A DNA stretch of 64,000 nt from positions 58,074,665-58,138,664 of the forward strand of contig OU862906.1 of the NCBI GenBank assembly GCA_917880885.1, in the 5' to 3' direction. The stretch is from Limnephilus marmoratus. Lineage: Eukaryota; Arthropoda; Insecta; Trichoptera; Limnephilidae. Under the pieces are notes generated by a model. That model saw nothing but the letters and a program-made list of their open reading frames with translations, made no database searches and had not been told where the DNA came from. This document shows, piece after piece, positions 8,932-52,835 of the stretch. A program made the position numbers and the translations under genes. Positions within the stretch are counted from its first letter, which is position 1, and the number at the start of each line of letters is the position of its first letter.

Positions 8932-9932
8932 TATGAATCGCTAGATCGCGAAAGTTCTGCTTTAAGCGGTTGAAAAATGGGATTATGTATATTTCAGGAT
9001 GAATTAATTTATACTGCTTAACTAATTCCGGTGATATTCATGCACTGACCTTACCTATGTGGGATTTTTTGTTATACATACGAGTAAATCATAGGTAAAT
9101 GTAATTACGTGTATATATTATTTTTTCTTTTCCCCTGATAACTAATTTTTTTATTTTATCTGCCAGATTAGGTTTATTTATTTTCGTACCGCTTGTGGAG
9201 AAAGCTTTGTTTTTATAATAGTATGAATAAATGTATGTACTCAATAAAAACATTTACTTACAAAATGTATAGTTATAATGTATTTTATTTAAAAATTGAC
9301 CATGTTTGTTTAATTCCAGTAATAATCCAGTGATGTTAGAGCTTTTACATAATATATTATGAGAGCTATTTTTAAAACTACGCACAATGAGAATGTTCTT
9401 TTTACCTTATTTGACGCTTTGGCATTCTAAAATTTACTCATGCAAGTAATTCCCGACTGTCAGCGGAGTCGGAAAAAACCTTTTCATCGGAAAATGTGTG
9501 GATTTTCAATACATTTTGTGAAAGGCTAAAGTTTGTAGAATCTATTGAAATATGCACTTTAAAATAAATTTATGAGGCAAAGGAAATCATTTTGAAATAT
9601 TTCTCTTTGTTTGTGAATGAATGTCGTAATATAGAGACGAAAATGAATTCTAGGTTTGTTTACTGTTTGGTTACACATGATGTATGTACAAAGGCATGGA
9701 ATCTGTATTGTTTATTGTTGCTTTACAAGGTATAATTATTTACATTTCAAATTTCAACTTCACAAGGACAAGCCCGTGTTGAGGTAAAAAAATTAGTAAT
9801 TATTAAAAATAAGATATAATGAAACATTGGGGGGTTTTTAAAAGCTCAGGTTTTACAGAAATGCAAATTATGTACATTTTAAATGTTCCCACTGATTCCT
9901 TACTTTAGTTAACTTCCTAAAAGGGACTATAC
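8932..9932. other. AT-rich stretch without recognised gene
   Basis: No frame, inverted repeat or RNA-like structure stands out. Confidence 0.6.
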
Positions 9933-10458
9933 TTGACGCTAGCGCCGCCATCATTCAGTCTGCGCATAAAATGTTATTTACCTACCTCGGAACACACTAT
10001 GTCTAGTGAGGTGGGTATACTTGACGCTAGCGCCGCCAACATTCAGTCTGCGCATAAAATGTTATTTACCTACCTCGGAACACACTATGTCTAGTGAGGT
10101 GGGTATACTTGATGCTAGCGCCGCCAACATTCAGTCTGCGCATAAAATATTATTTACCTACCTCGGAACACACTATGTCTAGTGAGGTGGGTATACTTGA
10201 CGCTAGCGCCGCCAACATTCAGTCTGCGCATAAAATGTTATTTACCTACCTCGGAACACACTATGTCTAGTGAGGTGGGTATACTTGACGCTAGCGCCGC
10301 CAACATTCAGTCTGCGCATAAAATGTTATTTACCTACCTCGGAACACACTATGTCTAGTGAGGTGGGTATACTTGACGCAAGCGCCGCCAACATTCAGTC
10401 TGCGCATAAAATGTTACTTACCTACCTCGGAACACACTATGTCTAGTGAGGTGGGTAA
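9933..10458. repeat. Tandem array of six 88-bp hairpin units
   Basis: TTGACGCTAGCGCCGCC recurs at 9933, 10021, 10109, 10197, 10285 and 10373, exactly 88 bp apart, with only a few substitutions (such as GATGC at 10109 and GACGCAAGC in the last unit). Each unit holds a perfect 8-bp palindrome CGCTAGCG and a hairpin: TACCTACCT pairs with AGGTGGGTA (one T:G), enclosing CACTA-TGTC-TAGTG. The array stops abruptly at GTGGGTA followed by AAATAAAA. No coding is evident. The near identity of units implies recent amplification or ongoing homogenisation. Confidence 0.95.
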
Positions 10459-21883: not shown

Positions 21884-22189
21884 TTTAGGATACATGAGTT
21901 AATGCATACCTAAACATAATTTGAAATACATGTTTCGAATAACACTAACTTCGGTTTCAATTATTATTTTATGCACCAGATTTAAATGCCCGGGTTAAAT
22001 TTTCCTCAAAAAAAAAAAAAAAAGAAAAAAAGAAGGAAAAACTAAACCCTTTCACACACTTCCCCAAATGATCATCTAGTCAACCCACGCTATGCAATTG
22101 CACTATATAAGTATTATAAATACAAAACAATACAAGAACAACATGTCAACCTACTAGAGACCAAATGGGAATATAATTCACCGACTCCA
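21884..22189. other. AT-rich spacer
   Basis: An A-rich run lies at 22009-22040. Nothing else is recognised. Confidence 0.6.
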
Positions 22190-22590
22190 GATATTTTCAT
22201 ATCAGAGGGTTCGGCTCTGTGGCATTTCTAATTGAACCTATAAATCCTACCGATCCCTCAATATAAATATTTAAAAAATCCTTTGTAATCCTACATGTAT
22301 TTAAAATGACTGATTTTTGCATTTTTATATACAAATTCTTTGACAAATCTAATATGCTTAAATTTTGAATCAGATTCCTAGGTATTATGCCATTGGCCGA
22401 AATAACAAATGGCAATATTTTTATAGTCCGAGAATTACGTTTGGTTGAGATAATTGAAGTGTTTTGCGTGAATAATTTTATTTGACCAGGAATCTAATAA
22501 TTCCTGGTTAGTATTTATAAGAATGTTGGCATTCTCGTCATATAAATTTAAAGGTGTAATATTTCTATCTGCCTTGCAAATTATTATTAT
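22190..22590 (-). pseudogene. LINE RT C-terminal fragment
   Basis: The minus-strand frame 22415-22197 reads PFVISANGIIPRNLIQNL, then YIKMQKSVILNTCRITKDFL. The pattern 'P(V/L)VI(S/G)A.G.I...L', then 'Q(K)(A/S)VLL.T..I.RKFL', is the conserved C-terminal segment of many insect LINE RT proteins. Upstream (22416-22590) ADRNITPLN may represent the preceding part, with a stop between. It is a short decayed fragment with no catalytic region. Confidence 0.5.
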
Positions 22591-28716: not shown

Positions 28717-29386
28717 TGTTACGTAACAGAATCGGCTCCCGAGCGGAAGGTTAAGTGAATCGTCCCCACTACACGTGCCGACCGTTTCCTCTCCCCGCAC
28801 CGCGCGACCACCCCGCGTCAGGCGCGAAGCGCCGGGCGGCCCGCCGGCCGCCTTCCTTCGCTAGCTCTCGGCCAAGCAACTGGCTACGCGCGATTTGCGC
28901 TGTTTGTGCTCCACGATATTAACTCCGCGATGTATTGTTTGCAATTGTGTTGTGAACGGAATCCAGAAAAGATGGCAGACCACGCATCTAGCTATGTGAG
29001 TACCAACTCGCTTCCTCCCCCCCACCGTGTGCTTTGAACCGTTTGTAACTTCATTTAAACGCATAGAGAGAGGGAGAAATCCTCGTTAGGTCAGTAGGGT
29101 AGTTTAACTTGTGTTTTGTGCCGACACTGGCCGTATGTGTATCACCCTGTTCTGTTTATTGAATAAACCCTTTAAATGCAAATACTGTGTACTGATTGAA
29201 GAGGGAGTCCCGGGGATTTTGAGGAGAGGAGGGGAAGGAAGAATTGACCAAGCGAACCACTGGCACTCGCCCTGTTTTTTTAGGAGGAATCATGTTCGAG
29301 CCGGTTTGAGCTAACCGACGGCTGTTATTGTGTGTGTTTTACAGGAATAGGGCCTGGGGTAGGCCGCAGCAGCAGCGCCCCCAGCA
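28717..29386 (+). repeat. 5' LTR (670 bp)
   Basis: It starts with the perfect 12-bp palindrome TGTTACGTAACA. A CpG-rich segment lies at about 28790-28860, in contrast to the AT-rich surroundings. AATAAA at 29162-29167 is a candidate polyadenylation signal. A short ATG frame at 28972 (about 21 codons) overlaps a donor-like TATGTGAGT, and an acceptor-like TTTTACAG lies at 29337-29344. Confidence 0.92.
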
Positions 29387-30429
29387 CTGGCGTTCCCAAC
29401 TTAGGGGCAATTTTTTTTTCCTCCCTCTTCACAGTCGCTCGCCTCGTTCTTCAATCACCCATTGTTTAAACTGTATAATCTATAATGTTTTGTCTTGTTT
29501 TTTTTCCCAATTTGTCTAGCATTACCATCAAAAAACATCGACGCGAGTGTAACTTCGAATTGCAAATTTAAACTATCGCGGGCACATTCCTTCATTTTCG
29601 AGTCGTCACTCGACAAAACATTATCACCGGTATTCCTACGTAAAGTGCTCAACCAAGAAAGTTGCCGTCGTGAATAATATAGTGTTTACAAGTGTCGACC
29701 GACTAAATTTGCTAGTTTCAAATACAAGATTAATAGTGGAAATGTACACAAATATTTAAAACAAAGTTATTCAACAATTAAAATCCTGTATATGATAAAC
29801 CAATTACCCGCTTCGTTTCCCGAAAGTTAATTAACCAGTTTTCATTAATAAACTTATTCCGCAGTGTGCTGGTCTGTATTTGATATCGACATATACTGCG
29901 AATAGGGGTCTATTTCGCAAAATACTGGCCTGTATATATAACGGCATATTTTGCAGCTTAAGGGAAACAAGTGGATTAAATTCTTTCTACCTTTTGACAA
30001 TTGAGCATTTTTCTAATTTTGCCGCCTGTTTCATCATTTAGCTTTTTTTCTTTCGTAAGAAACAGACGACATAATTTGAAAGACGTTCGGTTCGCGTTGA
30101 CGTCGTTTCCTCGAGTCAGGCATTACATTACGTATGCACATCTGCATATAACTTGTTATGACAAGAGGAAGTCGGCGGATAAATACCAGTAATGGTGTAT
30201 GCTCAAATCAGGCTGCAGTATAGCCACGTTAAATAAAGAACAATTCCCCAAGACATTGTTGAATTTTCAAACATACTTCCACGAAAACTTGTATAAAAGA
30301 AAAAATATTTCCTTTCCTTTCTAAAGAACCCCCCCTTTGGAAGGCTAATCGAAATATTCCAAAAAACATGTTCATTTAAGGCGAACCTCGTTTCCGTTTT
30401 TTTTATTTTTTCTTTTCCGGACTTTTGCT

Positions 30430-35867: not shown

Positions 35868-36537
35868 TGTTACGTAACAGAATCGGCTCCCGAGCGGAAG
35901 GTTAAGTGAATCGTCCCCACTACACGTGCCGACCGTTTCCTCTCCCCGCACCGCGCGACCACCCCGCGTCAGGCGCGAAGCGCCGGGCGGCCCGCCGGCC
36001 GCCTTCCTTCGCTAGCTCTCGGCCAAGCAACTGGCTACGCGCGATTTGCGCTGTTTGTGCTCCACGATATTAACTCCGCGATGTATTGTTTGCAATTGTG
36101 TTGTGAACGGAATCCAGAAAAGATGGCAGACCACGCATCTAGCTATGTGAGTACCAACTCGCTTCCTCCCCCCCACCGTGTGCTTTGAACCGTTTGTAAC
36201 TTCATTTAAACGCATAGAGAGAGGGAGAAATCCTCGTTAGGTCAGTAGGGTAGTTTAACTTGTGTTTTGTGCCGACACTGGCCGTATGTGTATCACCCTG
36301 TTCTGTTTATTGAATAAACCCTTTAAATGCAAATACTGTGTACTGATTGAAGAGGGAGTCCCGGGGATTTTGAGGAGAGGAGGGGAAGGAAGAATTGACC
36401 AAGCGAACCACTGGCACTCGCCCTGTTTTTTTAGGAGGAATCATGTTCGAGCCGGTTTGAGCTAACCGACGGCTGTTATTGTGTGTGTTTTACAGGAATA
36501 GGGCCTGGGGTAGGCCGCAGCAGCAGCGCCCCCAGCA
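35868..36537 (+). repeat. 3' LTR (670 bp)
   Basis: Direct copy of the 5' LTR at a constant 7151-bp offset with no indel. I noticed no substitutions by eye. It is followed by CCAT, matching the bases before the 5' LTR. Confidence 0.92.
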
Positions 36538-36541
36538 CCAT

Positions 36542-38101
36542 AGAAATATATTCTTATTATAACCTACGTTAAAGATACGTCTTAAAGACGTAAGTTTAAA
36601 AGTGTATATTATTTGACATATTATCATACTTAAACAGTTTTAAAGGCAGTTGAATAATTAGTTTAGGGTTTTGTACTTTAAATAAAACCAAAATAATTTA
36701 AAAAATAACAAAATGCTAAACCTCTTACAAATCGACAATAAACTATTAAGTTTTTTTTTTAATTAAAAATAATGTTTTATTTTATGTCTAAATCGTATTA
36801 TTTTTATATGCTACAAAAGTTTGATTGCTAATCAGTCGTTATACTTAAAAGTAATATGAAAATAAATTTTTTGTTCGCCAAATCACATTTATAAGAACAA
36901 GTCCGAAAGTTACACAAAAGATAATCATACAACTTTCGAACGTATGGTGACGTATTTCTCCGTCTTTATTGTATTCACCGTGGTGACAGAGCCACCCCGG
37001 GTAAGCTCTGCTCGGCAACGAGCGAACTGAGATAGGCAGTGCGCTATGTGGCGAAATAAAAAAAAAAGATACCAACACTTGTGTCTCGCTTACGTAGCAA
37101 AGACGTAGATTATCTTTCTAGGGTTAAATGTAATAATTGTTTATGTTCCACGTAATATCAGCAGACTGAGATTGGACTATCCTCCCGGTCCTGCCGGATT
37201 AAGAACTTAATTAAAACAAATTAAACGTCCACCATCTTGAAATGAGAACGGTAATTGGAAAAACAAATACAGATACACATAATGCGAAACGGTCGAGATA
37301 AAACATGACTTCGGACGCAGGTAAGAAATACTAACAAGAAATTAATCCGGCAAATGAGAAACAATCCGACAAATACTTACCCAAATAATACTCCTTTGAT
37401 TTTGGTACCAAAGCTTTATAATAATATTTATGGGTTTATAATTGTCTGTTGAACAATATTTAATTGAAAAACCCACTGGCTCCAGATGTTGGCAGTCTGT
37501 TAGTATTATATTACCTTTGCGCCAAAAACTTATATTTTGGAAGCAGTAACTCAGCGTTGGTATAACTTGACCCAATGGGAATTAATGCCTGTCTTTGATG
37601 GTCACATTTTTAAACAGTGCGATTTCGTTGCCCAATTTCACCCCGAGACAAAATTACCCCACTTCAAAGATCCGACTGAACCTTGGACTGAAAAATCTAG
37701 AATTATAAAAGAATTCTAGCTAGCATAGCCATGTAGTAAAAAGGCTTGAATTCAATCGCAAAAGCTTCAAATTAAGAGTGTTTACGATATATATCTTTGA
37801 ATTTTGCGCTCGTTGCTTGATTGTTGGATCGGTCGGATTGGGAAATTCGGCCGGTTAAGTGCGGTCGACTAGCGTTACACCTTGAGTTAATGTAATATTC
37901 AATTATTTCTAAGGGTTTTGAGGCGGCCGCGGTTTGAATATAAACCCGAGTTGATCACTTCAAATGACACTGAGTAGGCCATTGTCGAACGGTCATATTT
38001 CATCAATTATCAGAGTGGAGCTAAGATTAGAAGGCGAATGAAAGTCAAAGGTGACTGGTCACACTAACTTAAGTAATATCACCGGAAAATCGTTGCTATC
38101 A
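36542..38101. other. Stretch without recognised gene
   Basis: A 60-codon frame at 37537-37719 (PVFDGHIFKQCDFVAQFHPE) has unusually ordinary amino-acid composition for this window but lacks an ATG at its 5' end and matches nothing I recognise. It could be an exon or a transposon scrap. Confidence 0.4.
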
Positions 38102-38269
38102 TCAATATATATTATAAAAGAAAGTCCAAAAAAGCGTGCGGAACGCAAAAACTCAGAAACGAGTGCCGGTATGATCAAGAGAGTTATATGGTATGGTAGA
38201 TCTCTATCCGCCCTAGGGAATAAGGGTATTCGTTTTTACCTAAAGGTCTTACTTTTGAAGATATAAGGG

Positions 38270-39900
38270 CTGGAAGTTCTAAGAAGACTCTAGAATTTTC
38301 AAGAAGAGTCTGGAAGATTCCGGAAACTTCTAGAAAATTCGATAAAACTCTGGAATGTTCTGGAAGAAATGGAGGAGTATGTTAGCGAATCTAGAAGGTT
38401 CCGGAAAGTTCAAGAAGGTTCGATAAAGCTGTAGAAAGTTCTGAAAGGAGTGGAGGAGTGTGTCGGTGTGTCTAGAAGGTTCCGGAAAATTCTAGAAGGT
38501 TCCATAAAGCTGTGGGAAGTCCTATAAGGTTCGATAGGGCTGTATAAAGTTCTGGAATGAGTGGCGGAGTATGTCGGTAAGTCTAGATGGTTTCGAAAAG
38601 TTCAAGAAGGTTCGGTAAAGTTGTGGAAAGTTCTGAAAGGAATAGTGGTATATGTCGGTGGGTATAGAAGTTTCCGGAATGTTCTACAAGGTTCGTAGAA
38701 AGTTCTAGAAGGTTCCGCAAGGCTGTAGAAAGTTCTAGAAGGAGTGGAGGAGTATTTTGGTGTACGTAGAAGGTTCCGAAAAATTCTTGAAGATTCCACA
38801 AAGCTGTAAGAATTTCTAGAAGGTTCGATAAAGCCGTGCAAAGTACTGGAAGGAGTGGCGGAGTAAGTCGGTGAGTCTAGAATGTTACGGAAAGTTCTAG
38901 AAGGTTCGATAAAATTGTACAAAGTTCTGAAACAAATGGTGGAATATGTCGGTGGGTTTAGAAGTTTCCGGAAAGTTCTAGAAGGTTCGATAAAACTGTG
39001 GAAAGTTCTAGAAGGTTACGTAAAGCTGTAGAAAGTTCTGATAGGAGTGGAGGAGTGTGTTGGTGTGTCTAGAAGGTCCCAAAAAATTCTAGAAGGTTCC
39101 ATAAAGCTGTAGGAAGTCCTAGAAGGTTCGATAGGGCTGTACAAAGTTCTGAAAGGAGTGGCGGAGTATGTCGGTGACTATAGAAGGTTCGATAAATCTA
39201 TAGAAAATTCTGGAAGGAGTGGCGGAATATGTCGGTGAGTCTAGAAGGTTCCGAAAAGTTTTACAAGTTTCCATAAAGGTATAGAAAGTTCTATAAGGAG
39301 TGGCGGAGTACGTCGGTGATTCTAGAAGATAAAGTTTCATAAGGTTCGATAAAGCTGCAAAAAGTTCTGAAGGGAGTGGCGGAATATGTCGGTGGATCTA
39401 GAATATTCCAGAAAGTTTTAAAAGGTTTCATAGAGCTGTACAAAATTCTGGAAAGCATGATGGAATATGTCAGTAGGTCTAGAAGGTTCCAGAAAGTTCT
39501 ATAAGGTTCGATAAAGCTATAAGAAGTTCTGGAAGGAGTTACGGAACACGTCAGTGAGTTGAGAAGGTAAGTTCTACAAGGTTCTGTAAAGCTGTAGAAA
39601 GTTCTGGGAGGAGTGTCGTGAGTCTAGAAGTTTCCGAAAAGTTCTACAAGGGTTCAATAAAGCTGTAGAAAATTCTATAAGGAGTGGCAAAGTATTTTGG
39701 TGAGTGTAGAAAGTTCCGAAAATTTCAAGAAATTTCGATAAAGCTGTAGAAAGTTCGGGAAGGAGTGGCGGAGTACGTCGGTGAGTCTACAAAGTTCCTG
39801 AGTTCTAGAAGGTTCGATAAAGCTGTAGAAAGTTCTGGAAGGAGTTACGGAATACATCAGTGAGTTTAGAAGGTTCCGGAAAGTTCTAGAAGTTTGGATA
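38270..39900 (+). promoter_or_regulatory. Heat-shock-element array, ~17 irregular units of 63-111 bp
   Basis: The repeated theme is tctaGAAggTTCcgGAA followed by agTTCtaGAAggTTC, ending in GGAGTGGCGGAGTATGTCGGTG. At 38394-38421 six inverted nGAAn pentamers are contiguous and perfect (GAA/TTC starts at 38394, 38399, 38404, 38409, 38414, 38419). Most other units retain three to five. Known biology: trimeric HSF binds three or more contiguous inverted nGAAn units and binds extended arrays cooperatively. Whether HSF binds this array in vivo is inference. Confidence 0.75.
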
Positions 39901-40149
39901 ATTATATTATTAAAAAAATAATTTGCATGCCGCTAAAGCTCAAAGACGAGTTCTGGTACGATAACGGGAGTTATATTGTGTGGTAGCCCCCTATCCTTCA
40001 TCCACGAAGAAAGTTCCCATTCTTACCTTAAGGGCTTGCTTTTAAAGATATAAGGGCTGGAAGTTTGGCTCCGTTGAAATTTCTAGAACAGTTCAAAAAT
40101 TCCAGAGTATTCTTGAGCATTCCACCACATTCCAGAACATCTCGAAACA

Positions 40150-40167
40150 TTCTGGAATGTTCGAGAA
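40150..40167 (+). promoter_or_regulatory. Perfect four-unit heat shock element
   Basis: TTCtgGAAtgTTCgaGAA has four contiguous, perfectly spaced pentamers. It lies about 160 bp upstream of a TATA box in the same element. Confidence 0.75.
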
Positions 40168-40307
40168 TAGGATGGAACTTCAGGAACATACTGGAATAGC
40201 CCAGATCATTATGGAACATTCCAGAATACTCCTGAATGTTGTGGAATGATCTGGAATATTATTCTGTAACATTTGATTTTTTTTTGTATGGGGATATCCA
40301 TATGGGG

Positions 40308-40367
40308 TATATAAAGTAAGATCCGTCGTGGATTCGAACGTCAATTCAATCTCACATCAACTCCATG
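40308..40367 (+). promoter_or_regulatory. Candidate hsp-like core promoter within the Helitron-like element
   Basis: TATATAAAG at 40308-40316 is followed 33 bp downstream (TATAAA start to A) by TCAATTCAAT (40341), which approximates an arthropod initiator. An ATG lies at 40365. HSE-rich DNA lies on both sides. The AATTCAAT cap-site context resembles the start of insect hsp70 leaders as I remember them. The frame from the ATG is short, so no product is proposed. Confidence 0.5.
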
Positions 40368-40631
40368 AGTGATGTCGGACACCCCAGTCAGAGTATTTGA
40401 GAGCATTCCACAACGTTCCAGAACATCCCGGAACATTCTGGAAAATTGTGGAATGTTCGAGAATAGGGAATCGGGAACATCAATGTGAAACATTCCAGAA
40501 CACTCTCGAATGTTTTTCTGAGCGAAGCCGGGTAACCCAGCTAGTTAAAAATAATGCATCCACCAACAATTTTTAAGAATGTCTAAAATGTTTCATAATG
40601 CACGATAATAAACCGCTGGTAATCAGGAAAT

Positions 40632-49971: not shown

Positions 49972-52835
49972 ATGCTTAACATATATTTTCAAAATGTGCG
50001 AGGTCTTCGCACAAAAACTCATAGCTTCTTAAATCAGGTACTTTTGAACAATTACGATATTTACCTTATATGTGAAACTTGGTTAAATAAATCAATCCAT
50101 GACAGTGAATTGTTTGACAATAGGTATGATGTATTTAGAGAGGATCGTAACTACTTTTTGTCTGGACAGCAGCAGGGAGGGGGGGTACTAATTGCAACCT
50201 CCAAATCTCTCAAAGCACAGAGATTACCATGGTCTACTTGTACTAAGGAGATCTGGATATCAGTGCCAATATTAGGTGACAATAATAAACTCAAAAATTT
50301 ATATATCTGCTGCACATATCACCCACAAAACACCAACTACATCCACAATCTAATTCAGCACTTCAACACCACATCAGACCTGCACACAAATCACCCGGAA
50401 GGATTGTTTTTATTAGCTGGAGACTACAATACACCCAAACTAAACTGGAAGTTAACCGAAGGGCAAAACCAATTAGAACCAAATTTTCCAGAAGACACTG
50501 CTAGCCGTGCCTTGGTAGACTTCCTTTCATTCACCCAACTACACCAATTCAATACTGTAATCAATACAAACAAACGAATCCTTGATTTAATCATGACAAA
50601 TATTTAAAAATGTAGTATAACCCACTGTACCGAACCTCTGACGCCTGAAGATTCACATCACAGAGCATTAGACATAGAGTTATCACCTGTTACTGTACCG
50701 TCTCTCTCCGGCTCGTCTAGGATAGTTAAAATGTTTCACCTAGGTGATTACGGTAAAATTACTGATGAATTATCTAAAATAAATTAGAAACTCGAATTTC
50801 AAAGTAAGGATACCGAAAAGGCCGTATTAGATTTTTACAATATCATAAATGACATTATTCGCAAATACATCCCCGAAAAAAAAATTAACGGTAATTTAGA
50901 AAGGTTTCCCCCCTGGTACACTTTACCACTTATTAAAATTGTAAAAGAGAAACTAAAATATCACAAGAAATGGAAAAAATACAAGAACTTAGCTGACTAC
51001 CAATCATTCTCTGTACTGAGAAATCGTCAGAAGAAGATCTCGCTAGAATGTTATGAAAACTTCATTACGACGGCAGAAGATTCAATAAAAAAGTGTAGCA
51101 AATAGTTCTGGTCATTTGTTAAATCAAAGCAATCCTCTTCCGATTTACCTAAGCAAATGTATCTTGGTGATATTTCCTGCAATGATGGACAATCCATATG
51201 CGACCATTTTAGTGATTATTTTAGATTAGTTTTTGTAGAAAATTCCAACCCTCGCCTCAATCTTACTGAGAATGGTGACGACAACTCTAATCTACATATA
51301 CACACTATTAACTTCAATCAATCATGTGTACTTAGTTATTTAAAAAAACTTGATCCGAATAAAAGTGCGGGATCTGATTTAATTCCATCCATATTTTATG
51401 TAAAATGCCGGGACCAATTGGCTTATCCTCTCTCCTTGCTATTCAAAATGTCATTTGAAGAAGGCAACTTCCCCAACGTCTGGAAACAAGCACTCATTAC
51501 ACCAATCCACAAAAGCGGGGACAAAAATAACATCACCAACTACAGGCCCATCTCCAAACTCCCAATTGTCAGCAAGATCATGGAAAACATAGTTCTTGAT
51601 CAACTTTTTCCAGCAGTACAAACAATCATATCCAAAAATCAACACGGCTTTTTCAGAAAACGGTCGGTCGAGACAAACCTTCTGGAATACACAGATTTTA
51701 TTTTAAATTCTATGTGTGGTAAAAATCAAGTGGACTCTATCTATACGGATTTTTCAAAAGCCTTTGATAAAATTAACATTGAACTGCTTCTGAAGAAACT
51801 GTTAAAAATCGGGATTAAGGGTGACCTTCTCAGATGGATCAAATCGTATGTGACAAACAGAAGTCAAGCAGTTAGAGCTAAGGGTTTCTCCTCTCGTTTT
51901 TTCAATATACCTTCAGGAATCCCGCAAGGATCACATCTCGGACCTCTCTTGTTTATTTTATATATCAATGATATGAGTGAATGCTTTAAAAATTCCAAAT
52001 TCCAAATTTTTGCTGATGACACTAAAATTTACAAAAAAATCACTAATATTAATGACAGCCTAGAATTGCAAGATGATATTAATAGGCTTGGAATATATTG
52101 TGCGAACAACCAACTGTTCCTTAACCTAGAAAAATGTAATACAATATCATTCACCAAAAGCATAAATCCCCTAATATTTCCGTACAAAATCAATGACGTA
52201 GAGATAAAAAGATGTTGTGAAGTGAAGGACTTAGGAATAATTATGGACTCCGGAATGTCTTTCCGAACACATATAAATTCCATCTGTGACAGGGCATACA
52301 AACTTCTAGGATTCATCATAAGAGTGACCAAACCATTCAGGTCACCACACGTAATCAAAATACTGTATGTCTCTTTTGTTCGCTCAATATTAGAATTCGG
52401 ATCGGTCATATGGAATCCCCAATACAAAGTTAATATTGAAAGGTTAGAAAGAATTCAAAAAAGATACTGAAACACCTAGACTTTAAATCCTTTCGAACAT
52501 CAGAAAGCCTAAAAGACTCATTAACATTCCATAATTTATCAACCTTAGAAGATAGAAGAAATATATCCGACCAGAAATTTCTATTCAAAATTATTAACAA
52601 CGTTGTTGACAACAACTATCTTCTGGAACACATTAATTTCCACTGTCCAATAAGAAACACAAGGTCAAACCAACTATTCCACATCCCACACTCAAAAACA
52701 AATTACACACAACATTCATTTCTCCGAAGGACGTGCACAAAATACAATGATATCTTTTACGACGCTGATATTTTCCATTTGTCCTCAGGCCAATTTATTA
52801 AATTCATAATAGAAAAAATCAAAACAAATTGTTAA
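49972..52835 (+). pseudogene. LINE ORF2: endonuclease-reverse transcriptase, inactivated
   Basis: ATG 49972. The endonuclease domain has FQNVRGLRTK, then LICETWLN (catalytic E region), then LAGDYNTPKLNW (GDxN motif). The linker contains RFPPWYT. RT motifs in order are DPNKSAGSDLIPSI, ITNYRPISKLP, IYTDFSKAFDKIN, GIPQGSHLGPLLFILYIND and FADDTKIY, so the catalytic Asp residues are present. Same-frame stops occur near 50605, 50785 and 51103. At about 52460 a one-base loss in an A run shifts the frame, after which the C-terminus continues to 52835 (RNTRSNQLFHIPHS). The layout and motifs fit the CR1/Jockey superfamily; finer clade is not resolvable by eye. Confidence 0.88.

Follow-up and report, generated by a model that had tools for sequence, protein, structure and literature searches.

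Why should a transposable element in an insect genome be filled with what look like binding sites for heat shock factor (HSF)? The question is raised by a 64-kb stretch of the Limnephilus marmoratus genome (contig OU862906.1, positions 58,074,665 to 58,138,664; hereafter the window), in which a Helitron-superfamily element at 38102-40544 carries long arrays of heat-shock elements (HSEs). HSF binds arrays of inverted nGAAn units, and a preliminary description of the element had proposed a mobile heat-responsive enhancer. The sequence suggests something beyond an enhancer, a promoter belonging to the transposase of the family itself: at four genomic loci an HSE array, a TATA box and an initiator were found, in that order, ahead of RepHel coding sequence.

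Ends, copies and insertion sites

Copies were sought in the host genome (1.63 Gb, 67 contigs) with the first 319 bp of the element (38102-38420) as query. From 2178 first-look candidates the best 40 went on to scoring, and 20 of the 39 non-self places were then read. All 40 scored matches, self included, were 97-100% identical to the query; because they were taken from the best candidates, the scored copies are biased towards young ones. The preliminary description had placed Helitron-type ends, TC and CTAG, between an A and a T, and this was borne out at the element itself (38101|38102 and 40544|40545) and in its copies. TCAATATATAT is the start of all 20 other copies read, 18 of which are the same as the window over the first 30 nt (L047 and L048 each have a single mismatch). 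With the window included, the 5' TC terminus was present in 21/21 copies, as was an A before it, and the 5' module was near-invariant across the 21 aligned rows. The exact 3' string, GCGAAGCCGGGTAACCCAGCTAG, with its CTAG end, was found in 15 of the 20 copies and in the window (16/21), followed directly by T in 16/16. Across the genome the 26-nt 3' end with its flanking T has 864 exact occurrences (449 + 415; reversed control 0). At 2443 bp the window copy is the shortest of these 16; the other 15 measure 3241-4443 bp.

Empty A|T sites, as envisaged in the preliminary description, were found twice for copy L031. Its flanks, joined by script, aligned with no gap at the junction to uninterrupted paralogous sequences, one flanking L046 and one in the window at about 22415|22416. 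The insertion thus lies exactly between A and T, with no duplication of the target. The paralogous empty site of this Helitron copy in the window spans 22116-22435.

Some copies were rearranged or partial. Sequence of the element runs in both directions in L041 (C22:44744395-44751395), giving 146 perfect three-unit HSEs in a single stretch. In L040 and L044, both on C7, the match was limited to the first 504 bp of the element, and the upstream flanks were nearly alike. No stretch in viral contigs matched the 3'-end, 5'-core or 5'-start strings, and none in prokaryotic genome contigs matched the 3'-end or 5'-core strings, both being collections not meant for insects.

HSE arrays

Perfect three-unit HSEs were counted as GAA..TTC..GAA and its complement; 47 lay inside the element and 1 in the rest of the window. 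Alternating GAA/TTC runs at 5-bp spacing, rightly said to dominate the interior, numbered 28 with at least three units, 10 with at least four and 5 with at least five, compared with means of 0.084, 0.003 and 0 (maxima 2, 1 and 0) in 2000 dinucleotide-preserving shuffles. Four perfect six-unit runs begin at 38313, 38394, 38475 and 38961, the second being the run at 38394-38421 as already described. Six-unit stretches scoring at least 16/18 numbered 49 in the element and 0 in the remaining window. Near-HSEs (at least 8/9 letters) numbered 24, 31, 18, 19 and 25 in the five 500-bp bins from 38001 to 40500, and averaged 0.24 (maximum 2) in 122 other 500-bp bins, the bin at 40501 being excluded from this control. 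HSE density was therefore far higher than in the shuffled control, and higher than in the remaining window. The arrays reported in the preliminary description were present, with more sites than it had listed and an extent reaching 40511 rather than 39900.

The element is a composite of two Helitron 5' modules with an HSE array after each (Table 1); the second module and the promoter described below are additions to the earlier account. Positions 38104-38300 aligned with the second module at 39900-40083, and of the 20 copies read 13 had the exact 5' core string at the second place, 12 of them at the first place as well. Array A contained 80 GAA/TTC pairs at 5-bp spacing (shuffle mean 2.13, maximum 10, 1000 shuffles). 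Array B spans 40075-40511, after the second module, and is split into B1 and B2, whose alignment contained a 10-bp indel that preserved the register. Array A is a tandem repeat with higher-order units, and array B gave no Tandem Repeats Finder (TRF) report. The GAAnnTTC spacers were GG or AG in 33/48 cases in array A and 0/5 in array B, the GAA/TTC skeleton being common to both. When 32 reverse-complementary trinucleotide pairs were compared, GAA/TTC occurred 80 times in array A and 15 times in array B, and the next best pair 6 times and once. GAA/TTC alone was frequent, and the arrays are therefore not a generic palindrome effect.

Perfect three-unit HSEs were at least as abundant elsewhere in the family: of the 15 other copies with the exact 3' end, 14 (3.2-4.4 kb) contained 66-97 and L046 contained 48. 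They are clustered at more than 10 per kb (47 in 2443 bp in the window, 97 in 4198 bp in L035). Viral contigs held 9 stretches with seven-unit and 1 with nine-unit HSE strings; the nine seven-unit stretches (L001-L009, IMG/VR contigs), inspected by eye without alignment, were unlike the element. The motif that Garrigues et al. print for the HSE (GAA..TCC..GGA) had 0 matches in the 64-kb window.

Table 1. Parts of the Helitron-type element in the window
Feature	Position	Strand	Details and basis
Helitron-type copy	38102..40544	+	2443 bp; ends common to genomic copies, A|T flanks
5' terminal module, begins TCAATATATATTATAAAAG	38102..38281	+	genomic matches, alignment of 21 rows
HSE array A, alternating nGAAn/nTTCn, higher-order units of ~81/111/30/20 bp	38282..39897		repeat structure, pair counts
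Second Helitron 5' module	39898..40065	+	pairwise alignment
HSE array B1, spacer letters unlike array A	40075..40257		9 pairs; shuffle mean 0.29, maximum 3
TATA box TATATAAAG	40308..40316	+	in 16/16 copies with exact 3' end
Initiator-like TCAATTCAA	40341..40349	+	aligns with GTCAGTT of RepHel promoter
HSE array B2, diverged B1 duplicate	40405..40511		alignment; 6 pairs, shuffle mean 0.29, maximum 3
3' terminus GCGAAGCCGGGTAACCCAGCTAG with short predicted hairpin at 40526-40542	40522..40544	+	fold; genome count

The transposase promoter

The genome was searched with the PF14214 (Helitron_like_N) profile, and 150 of 170 candidates were scored, giving 146 matches. One of these, on C1 at 25392358 (L062), was picked because a family 3' end lay 3 kb downstream on the same strand. 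The order of parts at this locus is A|TC, family 5' module, HSE array, TATATAAAAC, GTCAGTT, RepHel pieces, a B2-like stretch and CTAG|T. It encodes PF14214 (E 5.8e-53) and PF05970 (PIF1, E 2.5e-63), and 25 perfect three-unit HSEs lie between its 5' end and the TATA box. Copy L031 of the non-autonomous form aligned with it over 205 bp with few mismatches.

Upstream DNA was then read for four more RepHel matches of a lower score class (L063-L066). Three of them, L063, L064 and L065, have the family 5' start and 42, 41 and 43 perfect three-unit HSEs. In L062-L065 TATATAAA is followed 33 bp later by TCAGTT (4/4), the last perfect HSE starts 69 bp ahead of the TATA box (4/4), and a second TCAATATATAT precedes the promoter in all four. 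No family 5' start, HSE array, TATA/TCAGTT promoter or perfect three-unit HSE was found upstream of L066. The succession HSE-TATA-initiator-RepHel was thus present in 4/6 RepHel loci read upstream beyond 1.5 kb, a non-random sample, and those four are the ones with the family 5' start.

Another RepHel group was considered as partner of the element and rejected, since neither family ends nor perfect three-unit HSEs were found at L050-L059 (10/10, about 1.5 kb on either side). At the L050 locus (L060/L061) neither was found in 4.9 kb upstream and 5.5 kb downstream. L050-L059 belong to a different, larger Helitron RepHel group, with dozens of matches of near-equal score and open frames of up to 1884 aa.

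In the non-autonomous copies the TATA box and initiator sit between B1 and B2. The initiator TCAATTCAA begins 33 bp past the start of TATATAAAG in 16/16 copies with the exact 3' end, and the block aligns with the RepHel promoter at the same 33-bp spacing. The window element is for this reason best read as a derivative that is without RepHel but retains the two ends, its arrays and the promoter of the transposase. No AATAAA or ATTAAA was found between initiator and 3' end in the 16 copies, so transcripts could run out of the element.

Variation in the HSE cores

Column variation was scored in 13 aligned copies; L033, L046 and L049 were dropped because of poor upstream alignment, and the five copies without the exact 3' end were left out. 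HSE cores changed at 0.0077 per site per copy, spacers at 0.0243 and the other columns outside the promoter at 0.0193. Taking all cores together, 9 of 90 × 13 cells were changed, compared with 134 of 524 × 13 in the other columns outside the 45-bp promoter (Fisher p 0.0027). In B1, 4 of 42 × 13 core cells were changed, compared with 81 of 186 × 13 others; in B2 the figures were 0 of 30 × 13 and 11 of 164 × 13. Between L031 and L062, over B2 and the 3' end, 1/30 core and 12/122 other positions differed. Conservation of the cores in B1 and B2 is taken as supporting evidence, not proof, of constraint.

Class assignment

The element at 38102-40544 is a member of the Helitron superfamily, since copies, ends, empty sites and a RepHel-encoding relative agree. 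That much of the preliminary assignment held, with one exception in the 3' hairpin. According to PMC4067079, a strict canonical Helitron has a palindrome of 16-20 nt about 11 bp from the 3' end. This palindrome was not found at the 3' end of the element, where there is only a short hairpin 2 nt from the terminus, and 15/200 shuffles folded as well as the 61 nt tested. Because the hairpin is out of the canonical place, the element is filed as a variant of the superfamily and not as strictly canonical. A strict Helentron/HINE was rejected: the target is A|T and not T-rich, and only one 8-bp inverted match was found between the 5' and 3' parts. The four open reading frame (ORF) pieces of L062, a single broken copy, matched no endonuclease family.

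Surroundings of the element

A 71-aa open frame at 37504-37719 (+), 0.4 kb upstream of the element, matched a single 53-aa predicted protein with 94% identity across 75% of the frame and had no Pfam or PDB match; it is perhaps a host exon. Pfam searches with 10 neighbouring ORFs (of 53 listed) gave nothing above the cut-off, and no host gene that might be controlled by the element could be named from them. A direct repeat of 671 bp, 100% identical, is present at 28717-29387 and 35868-36538, about 7 kb apart, and an 88-bp unit is repeated six times at 9928-10457 with 98% matches. A non-LTR (long terminal repeat) retrotransposon with endonuclease-like and reverse-transcriptase ORFs occupies 49972-52470. 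Among the 120 reverse-transcriptase relatives listed of 3341, most were nameless, and those bearing species names came from moths, butterflies and one aphid. For another ORF of the window the relatives with names were from a flea beetle and a psyllid.

Discussion

The arrays are probably accounted for by HSF turning on the transposase promoter upon heat, with the non-autonomous copies retaining that promoter, which now reads outward. The family's RepHel gene, as seen at four loci, lies behind a long HSE array and a TATA/initiator core promoter. Under heat or proteotoxic stress HSF trimers would assemble on the array; binding to multimeric HSEs is described as cooperative (PMC9148306). Array-bound HSF would then switch on RepHel, by which the family would be mobilised and amplified. 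The non-autonomous copies are without RepHel, yet the 5' module and 3' end are retained in them together with the HSE arrays and the core promoter. Each insertion would bring dozens of putative HSF sites, and a promoter reading past the 3' end, into the adjacent DNA, where neighbouring genes might be affected.

It could instead be that the arrays are ordinary Helitron central minisatellites, which happen to resemble HSEs and have spread through slippage, recombination and hitch-hiking, with HSF uninvolved. This is considered unlikely, although array A is clearly a tandem repeat and central satellite-like arrays, double ones included, are reported for non-autonomous rolling-circle elements of the oyster (PMC7492417). 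Array B gave no TRF report and has other spacers, yet the skeleton is kept; the core columns of B1 and B2 were less variable than other columns; and the distance from array to TATA box is identical in all four family RepHel loci. Several observations weigh against HSF involvement or limit what can be built on it, and the first two of these favour the minisatellite origin. Unit cores of array A were weakly more conserved (0.857 vs 0.811, p 0.12; 0.911 vs 0.830, p 0.034), the units overlapping. Of the 9 core changes, 5 fall in the 18 core columns that lie outside B1 and B2 (5 of 18 × 13, by subtraction), and these columns are no quieter than the part of the second 5' module around them, at 0.0188 changes per site per copy. 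The Fisher p for core against other columns is optimistic, since the 13 copies are relatives of one another and a single consensus served to define the columns. At L062 the RepHel frame is broken, no RepHel of the window element's family was shown to be intact, and the exact 3' string was not in the stretch read for 5/20 copies (L034, L040, L041, L044 and L045). Finally, the 864 genomic occurrences of the 26-nt 3' end are a count of ends alone and not of HSE-bearing copies.

Palindromic GAA/TTC arrays might also serve transposition itself, in Rep binding, strand folding or replication, the likeness to HSEs being secondary. The position of the arrays, directly after the 5' module and again near the 3' end in both RepHel-bearing and non-autonomous copies, would suit such a role, as would the many inverted repeats. 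Two other RepHel loci (L060/L061 and L066) are without a perfect three-unit HSE, so such arrays are not a general need of Helitrons, and the exact nGAAn register predicts HSF and not a generic hairpin; a role in transposition is accordingly rated as improbable, more so than a minisatellite origin. Capture of the TATA/initiator block from a host hsp70-like gene was rejected as very improbable. The match to the Drosophila core, 11/16, was equalled by another site in the window, and the block can be aligned to the RepHel promoter of the family, which accounts for it. Activation of the transposase promoter by HSF remains the favoured explanation.

HSE-bearing Helitrons are known in kind. As the preliminary description had noted, they were described in Caenorhabditis: in C. 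elegans the Helitron HSEs are reported to be HSF-1-bound and enriched near heat-induced genes, autonomous Helitrons included, and the authors speculate on a selfish use of heat for mobilisation (Garrigues et al. 2019, PMC6927752). Their survey, as reported there, saw no HSE enrichment in other UCSC genomes with annotated Helitrons, and thus in Caenorhabditis only. For insect Helitrons, HSE arrays were not found reported in a literature search of partial coverage. The same trait in an insect family, HSE-TATA-initiator-RepHel loci included, suggests convergence or spread. It is conceivable, if somewhat less than an even chance, that in an insect Helitron lineage the transposase became, independently, a heat-shock gene and its HSEs were amplified into long arrays. 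The copies of this lineage, which may number hundreds, each with an outward heat promoter, could then rewire the host heat-shock response or soak up HSF, and a supposed peculiarity of Caenorhabditis would have had a second origin. The family offers a direct test of whether a transposon can render itself heat-inducible and, as a by-product, spread heat-shock promoters across a genome.

Among known systems, the Caenorhabditis HSE Helitrons are closest, with clustered, overlapping HSEs in non-autonomous and autonomous carriers (PMC6927752); the present family is set apart, by description, by its insect host, two 5' modules, outward core promoter and the 66-97 perfect three-unit HSEs in 14/15 other full copies. 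Insect Hel-2 Helitrons share the 5'-TC, 3'-CTAG, A/T flanks, internal tandem arrays and non-autonomous state, but HSE arrays and a heat promoter are not part of their description as consulted here (PMC4344730). Non-autonomous Helentrons/HINEs are likewise described with central repeat arrays, sometimes two per element, whereas the window element has TC/CTAG ends, A|T insertion and the HSF-site register (PMC7492417, PMC4067079). The plant retrotransposon ONSEN/COPIA78, although its machinery is unrelated, is a transposon reported to have heat-responsive elements in its own regulatory region (PMC5059998), as is suggested here for an insect Helitron family.
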